DNA from: Candidatus Saccharimonadota bacterium
GTDB taxonomy: Bacteria > Patescibacteriota > Saccharimonadia > Saccharimonadales > Saccharimonadaceae
Length of the DNA: 64,000 bases
Assembly (NCBI GenBank): GCA_009783235.1
Contig: WRHN01000002.1
Span: forward strand, 1-64,000
Reading direction: 5' to 3'
This document shows, in pieces, positions 42,592 through 43,275 of the stretch; position 1 is the first letter of the stretch, and every line of letters begins with the position of its first letter. The position numbers and the translations under genes are program-made. The notes under the pieces are model-generated. The model was not told the origin of the DNA, made no database searches, and saw nothing but the letters and a program-made list of their open reading frames with translations.

Positions 42592-42618
42592 AAAGCGCCT
42601 TGTATTACAAGGCGCTTT
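42592..42618. terminator. Hairpin between convergent units, probable bidirectional terminator
   Basis: AAAGCGCCTTG / CAAGGCGCTTT form a perfect 11-bp stem with a 5-nt loop, between the plus-strand methyltransferase and the minus-strand mini-genes. The T-run is better on the minus strand (TTTTAAATT). Confidence 0.75.
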
Positions 42619-42646: not shown

Positions 42647-42796
42647 TTAATTTTCTGCCACTGGCGAAGTCAAACGCATATCAAGGCCCTCGTCTTCAAC
42701 CGCCGCAAGAACTATGTCTCGCACCGTACTATGCGGTTGTCCGTCTTTTTCAAGAAGTCCTGCAGATATGAGATCCGCGCTAATTGAGCCAAACAT
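42647..42796 (-). CDS. Unknown mini-protein, 49 aa
   Basis: Begins MFGSISADLISAGLLEKDGQ, ends TSPVAEN. Acidic, no membrane segment, probably helical in the middle (TVRDIVLAAVEDEG). Its ATG directly follows the TAG of the 53-aa gene (TAGATG), so it is translated by coupling. No family is recognised. A strong hairpin terminator follows. Confidence 0.6.
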   Translation of the reverse strand: MFGSISADLISAGLLEKDGQPHSTVRDIVLAAVEDEGLDMRLTSPVAEN

Positions 42797-42958
42797 CTAG
42801 TGGTCAGAATCTCGACATTTTTTCGCCAGTTCATAAAGTTTTATAACTCCTACTACGCCTTCTTCAGGCAACGAACGCAACACAATCATCACTGCTTTTA
42901 CAACAACTGCTGGTAATTCCACGCCCGTCTTAAGCGTAACCATCTCCACCTCCGACAT
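42797..42958 (-). CDS. Unknown mini-protein, 53 aa
   Basis: Begins MSEVEMVTLKTGVELPAVVV and ends CRDSDH. Amphipathic, with a hydrophobic middle (VVVKAVMIVL) too short and charged to be a clear membrane helix. AAAGGAGG lies 6 nt before the ATG, an excellent site. It is the first gene after a 280-nt structured leader with a consensus promoter. There is no double-glycine leader motif and no recognised family. Confidence 0.65.
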   Translation of the reverse strand: MSEVEMVTLKTGVELPAVVVKAVMIVLRSLPEEGVVGVIKLYELAKKCRDSDH

Positions 42959-42973
42959 TGCAAGCCTCCTTTT

Positions 42974-43240
42974 GGTTAAACGCTCTCGCAAGAGCGCTGG
43001 CCCGGGTAATCAAACGCTAAAAACCCAAGCCCTGACTTTTTGACACGCTTAACGCAGCCCAATTCCATAACTGGCCACTATAGAGAATCAATTTATTTTT
43101 TAATTCCTTATAGCGGCCAACCATAGCGGTGGTTGTATAATGACGTTTTACAAGCAAACGGTATTAAAATCCTAGACGACCCAAAGCACAACGTGCGCGC
43201 CTGGTCGTCTTTGGTGTGTAAACAAACATACCAAGCCTAT
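42974..43240 (-). ncRNA. Long structured 5' leader or embedded small RNA
   Basis: No ORF of note fills this stretch, although its promoter is consensus. Three good stems are visible: AGACGACC/GGTCGTCT (43174-43181 with 43203-43210), an 11-bp stem TGGCCACTATA/TATAGCGGCCA (43072-43082 with 43109-43119) that encloses further AT pairing, and CGCTCT-CGCA-AGAGCG (42981-42996) just ahead of the Shine-Dalgarno site. It does not match the tmRNA, SRP, RNase P or 6S features I know. It may be a cis-regulator of the mini-genes or an independent RNA. Confidence 0.5.
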
Positions 43241-43246
43241 TTTTGT

Positions 43247-43275
43247 ATTATAGCAAAGAATACTGGTTTTGTCAA
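43247..43275 (-). promoter_or_regulatory. Perfect consensus promoter before the structured leader
   Basis: Minus-strand TTGACA (43270-43275), 17 nt, TATAAT (43247-43252), preceded by TGC. It is the best promoter in the window. Confidence 0.9.

Follow-up and report, generated by a model that had tools for sequence, protein, structure and literature searches.

An in-frame TAG codon in a small-protein gene behind a consensus promoter and a folded 5′ leader in a Candidatus Saccharimonadota bacterium

Layout of the locus

The locus lies on the minus strand of a 64-kb stretch of Candidatus Saccharimonadota DNA, called the window below. It comprises a promoter, a folded leader, a short coding part and a terminal hairpin (Table 1). 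A C39-peptidase-like gene is located upstream of the promoter in divergent orientation, and a search made with it returned two weak relatives. At the other end, the small-protein gene converges with a SpoU-type methylase gene, and the hairpin between the two (z −4.4), with its U tract, probably ends transcription of both. This is where the sequence-only reading, made from the letters of the window, had placed a terminator.

The same reading had described a consensus promoter with a TG extension, and this was found as described. Its further claim that no other perfect TTGACA-17-TATAAT occurs in the window is correct for a spacer of 17 nt but fails once a spacer of 16 nt is counted, as a second perfect promoter is present at positions 153 to 180. 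The whole genome holds 11 perfect promoters with spacers of 16 to 18 nt, versus none for a reversed control pattern. The position of the promoter puts the probable transcript start near 43240, and the motif suggests that the small-protein unit is transcribed. Another perfect promoter of this genome, at position 133074 of contig C1 (L012), precedes a leader of more than 100 nt and a small gene that resembles, by eye, a glycine/arginine-rich stress protein.

Table 1. Features of the small-protein locus (window positions)
Feature	Position	Strand	Basis
Perfect promoter TTGACA-17-TATAAT, TG before the −10 box	43247..43275	minus	motif in sequence
Structured 5′ leader, ~282 nt	42959..43240	minus	fold z −5.44; start deduced from promoter
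Leader hairpin	43174..43210	minus	z −3.8
Long leader hairpin, 26 pairs	43065..43126	minus	z −6.6
Two leader hairpins just 5′ of the ribosome-binding site	42980..43031	minus	fold
Shine-Dalgarno site AGGAGG, 6 nt 5′ of ATG	42965..42970	minus	sequence
First gene half (53 codons, followed by TAG)	42797..42958	minus	same frame; profile match
In-frame TAG; Q, E or K in 9/12 homologous domains at this column	42797..42799	minus	alignment
Second gene half (49 codons), from the ATG adjoining TAG	42647..42796	minus	same frame; profile match
Probable terminator hairpin, common to this unit and the convergent methylase gene	42592..42618	minus	fold z −4.4; U tract in sequence

The folded leader

The predicted folding energy of the leader (positions 43240 to 42958) is −104.8 kcal/mol, versus −79.2 (standard deviation 4.7) for shuffled sequences, and none of 200 shuffles folded as well (z −5.44). 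After correction for composition, it ranks 25th among 7,196 genome windows of 282 nt. The 26-pair hairpin, compared with 112,862 windows of 72 nt after correction for G+C content, ranks 26th. The leader is thus well folded, which is rare but not unique, since other stretches of the same genome fold as well. The best-folded one, L039:8500-10500 (around 208.5 to 210.5 kb of contig C1), lies in and beside the gene of a proline-rich protein, probably a surface protein, that has a perfect promoter of its own. A coding-like frame was looked for in the leader, and none was found. The initial description of a structured leader devoid of an ORF therefore stands, with the hairpins at 43126-43065 and 43210-43174 prominent as single elements. 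Whether the Shine-Dalgarno site is paired in the predicted folds, i.e., masked by the leader, varies with the amount of coding sequence included.

A search of the region against Rfam 15 gave no family at the gathering score, and the matches up to E 10 were chance-like and far below the cut-off, in agreement with the initial failure to recognize a known RNA. RNase P RNA, tmRNA and the 5S, LSU and SSU rRNAs were all located elsewhere in the genome and were rejected as identities of the leader. At L034:7327-11487, the bacterial 23S rRNA model (2.9 kb) is matched over about 4.2 kb, so that this gene probably holds insertions or introns. SRP RNA and 6S RNA were not found in the genome at the Rfam gathering score, in a search by 20-kb stretches that could miss a match cut at a stretch border. 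No SRP domain-IV motif was visible by eye in the leader.

A CRISPR tracrRNA was rejected, as the 36-nt CRISPR repeat of the genome has no match at the leader. The CRISPR locus itself (L036:16234-19530 and L037:797-1558, around 156 to 162 kb of contig C1) contains a Cas9-like ORF of 1098 aa, a Cas2-like ORF preceded by a perfect promoter (both named by eye), and an array of 36-nt repeats and 30-nt spacers in which one spacer occurs twice. The leader is not a mobile repeat either, as it is present in single copy save for short matches on contig C3, one of 22 nt and one of 17 nt.

No relative of the leader was found outside its own genome, either by BLAST (0 of 60 other genomes; 1 of 61 with its own) or with a single-sequence covariance model (0 of 244; 1 of 245), a model that is insensitive and was run on many genomes with stricter filters, so that distant relatives could be missed. 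The sequence-only reading had named lack of conservation as the outcome that would speak against it, and on this point the evidence is divided: the protein is kept as one unit in relatives (see below), and the stems were seen in none of these genomes.

The strong promoter and the folded leader without an Rfam match are consistent with a heavily transcribed RNA that belongs to none of the known families. The leader might itself be the product, as an abundant small RNA or a new cis-regulator, with the gene behind it incidental. Its z score, the 26-pair hairpin, the perfect promoter and the lack of an Rfam match agree with this idea, as does the failure to find SRP and 6S RNAs elsewhere in the genome at Rfam thresholds. 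We nevertheless regard it as quite unlikely, given the good AGGAGG-ATG arrangement directly after the leader, the lack of relatives in the genomes searched, and a homologous gene (L004) that has a perfect promoter but a short leader.

One frame and one domain across the TAG codon

The coding part starts with the ATG at 42958 and had been read as two coupled genes of 53 and 49 codons. The two ORFs share a single frame, in which they are split by TAG alone, with ATG directly after it. We searched all open stretches of 30 codons or more in the genome, 11,493 in total, with a profile of the protein family from which the window protein had been left out. The second half ranked first (E 1.1e-9, profile positions 64 to 104), followed by the first half (E 4.4e-7, positions 6 to 53), whereas the next ORF had an E value of 0.099. 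The halves are thus consecutive segments of one domain, which is encoded by one ORF in the relatives, and the description as two genes has to be abandoned: neither ORF has a family of its own, and the second lacks a ribosome-binding site, the longest Shine-Dalgarno run before its ATG being 2 nt.

The TAG codon serves as a normal stop in this genome, where 180 of 604 nonoverlapping ORFs of at least 100 codons end with it. No tRNA with a CUA anticodon (CTA in the gene) is among the 46 listed by ARAGORN, and on these grounds a TAG-recoded genetic code was rejected. Highly expressed genes are reported to end only rarely in amber codons (PMC8954436).

By similarity over the whole domain, with both halves matching end to end, the coding part belongs to a family of proteins of about 100 residues that is unannotated: Pfam, NCBIfam, PHROGs, PADLOC and the PDB sequences returned no named family, with best scores near chance. 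Known members in the phylum are L003, L004, L025, L027 and L062 to L064, together with L026 and L066, in which the domain is present twice. An additional member (L020; E 3e-4) is encoded in a run of hypothetical genes on the Tsukamurella plasmid NZ_LR134455. All 10 homologous proteins, from nine genomes and this plasmid, are uninterrupted, and none of their 12 domains contains a stop codon. A match on a Mycolicibacterium plasmid (E 0.7 to 0.8) was included in alignments A4 to A6 and profile h, but left out of the 12-domain count and of profile h2, which also omits the second domain of L026; the two profiles agree.

The family is thinly spread. A first search of 120 genomes, with the frame read through, identified the genome under study and one uninterrupted homologue. 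Later draws at the level of family and order found it in 3 of 394 and 3 of 392 genomes. The count was 1 among 45 genomes from the genus of one homologue, 4 among 332 from the whole phylum, and 4 among 41 and 2 among 74 from the orders to which two new members belong; the draws overlap, and those of 120, 394, 392 and 332 genomes each include the genome under study. Besides the latter, nine genomes carry the family. A tRNA-like sequence was noted by eye directly 5′ of the small-protein gene in one of them (L027:1300-1411).

Like the window gene, L004 has a perfect promoter, TTGACA-17-TATAAT with TGC, located 99 nt before its ATG. However, its leader is only about 70 nt, so that a long leader is not a family trait; no leader like that of the window gene was found among the other members. 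L026 has an 11-of-12 promoter match 148 nt before ATG, and the other members scanned have weaker candidates.

A phage or plasmid origin of the locus was rejected. There was no DNA match, the protein has no relatives on viral contigs, neither it nor the plasmid relative has a phage match, and the one phage match of the L004 protein was at chance level. Protein scans of genome contigs found nothing. A single-sequence AlphaFold prediction gave a low-confidence model of a beta-hairpin and four helices, and its pLDDT of 54 was too low for a fold search.

A nonsense codon and the alternatives

We consider it probable (about 0.6) that the locus is one strongly transcribed gene of this family carrying a nonsense codon. 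The near-ideal promoter would yield an mRNA in which an orphan folded 5′ leader, some 280 nt long, precedes the coding part and its AGGAGG ribosome-binding site. Ribosomes would stop at TAG and release a fragment of 53 residues, and the second fragment, of 49 residues, would be made only through weak restart at the adjoining ATG. The leader would most likely protect the mRNA and tune its translation. Next to its uninterrupted homologues, the gene carries a disabling lesion, as a pseudogene would. The TAG itself may be a recent substitution. The residues at this column in the 12 homologous domains are Q (4), E (3), K (2), D, V and R (1 each), and Q, E and K codons (CAG, GAG, AAG) can be one base away from TAG, although residues rather than the codons of the homologues were compared here.

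Some observations argue against a nonsense codon. Codon use is gene-like in both halves (scores 0.189 and 0.145, versus a mean of 0.183 and a standard deviation of 0.10 for 177 ORFs of 100 to 200 codons), and the second half retains the conserved residues of the family, so that decay would be very recent, or selection would still be acting. In addition, Met does not follow the TAG column in any of the 12 domains, and the adjoining ATG would thus be a coincidence. Lastly, a stop directly followed by ATG is a common style in this genome, found in 14 of 40 neighboring same-frame ORF pairs, this junction included.

These features would fit a functional split gene, i.e., a fission fixed at TAG-ATG, in which termination-reinitiation yields both intact-looking halves and these reassemble into one fold. 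In native gene pairs, reinitiation is reported to be most efficient where the genes overlap or lie very close together (PMC10666635), and the adjoining stop and start here fall within the coupling distance range described there. The ORFs differ from such pairs by being parts of one domain, without a Shine-Dalgarno site for restart. The latter point favors a nonsense codon, as 9 of the 13 other stop-ATG junctions in the genome have a Shine-Dalgarno match of at least 4 nt before ATG. As, moreover, no second genome with the split was encountered among those searched for the family, we hold a functional split to be unlikely.

Continuation of conserved sequence beyond the stop is also what readthrough would produce, with UAG decoded at some rate to give a limiting amount of whole protein. 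In-frame stops are reported in bacterial genes other than simple pseudogenes, under purifying selection (PMC7918605). The present gene resembles those cases by its internal stop and conserved downstream half, but the stop is known from one genome. Readthrough appears highly unlikely, because TAG acts as a regular stop in this genome, a tRNA with a CUA anticodon was looked for and not found, and the site shows no specific sign of readthrough.

If the TAG were a miscall, the gene would be whole. TAG differs by one base from each of CAG, GAG and AAG, the usual residue is Q, E or K, and the assembly, in 6 contigs, may be of metagenomic origin. The surroundings of the locus showed no further sign of error, and we judge an assembly or sequencing error improbable.

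In a more elaborate version, a strongly expressed small protein would be deliberately split or throttled at UAG-AUG, and the species-specific 280-nt leader would be a new cis-regulator setting the amounts of whole protein or paired halves. This combination seems very improbable. If the split is real and kept, the gene would nonetheless be a compact system in which to test how a single domain is split at a stop-start junction.

The locus illustrates how an internal stop can make one gene look like a coupled operon. What looked like two orphan mini-genes becomes a single member of a family of small proteins that is named by none of the libraries searched, occurs sparsely across the phylum and is also found on an actinomycete plasmid.
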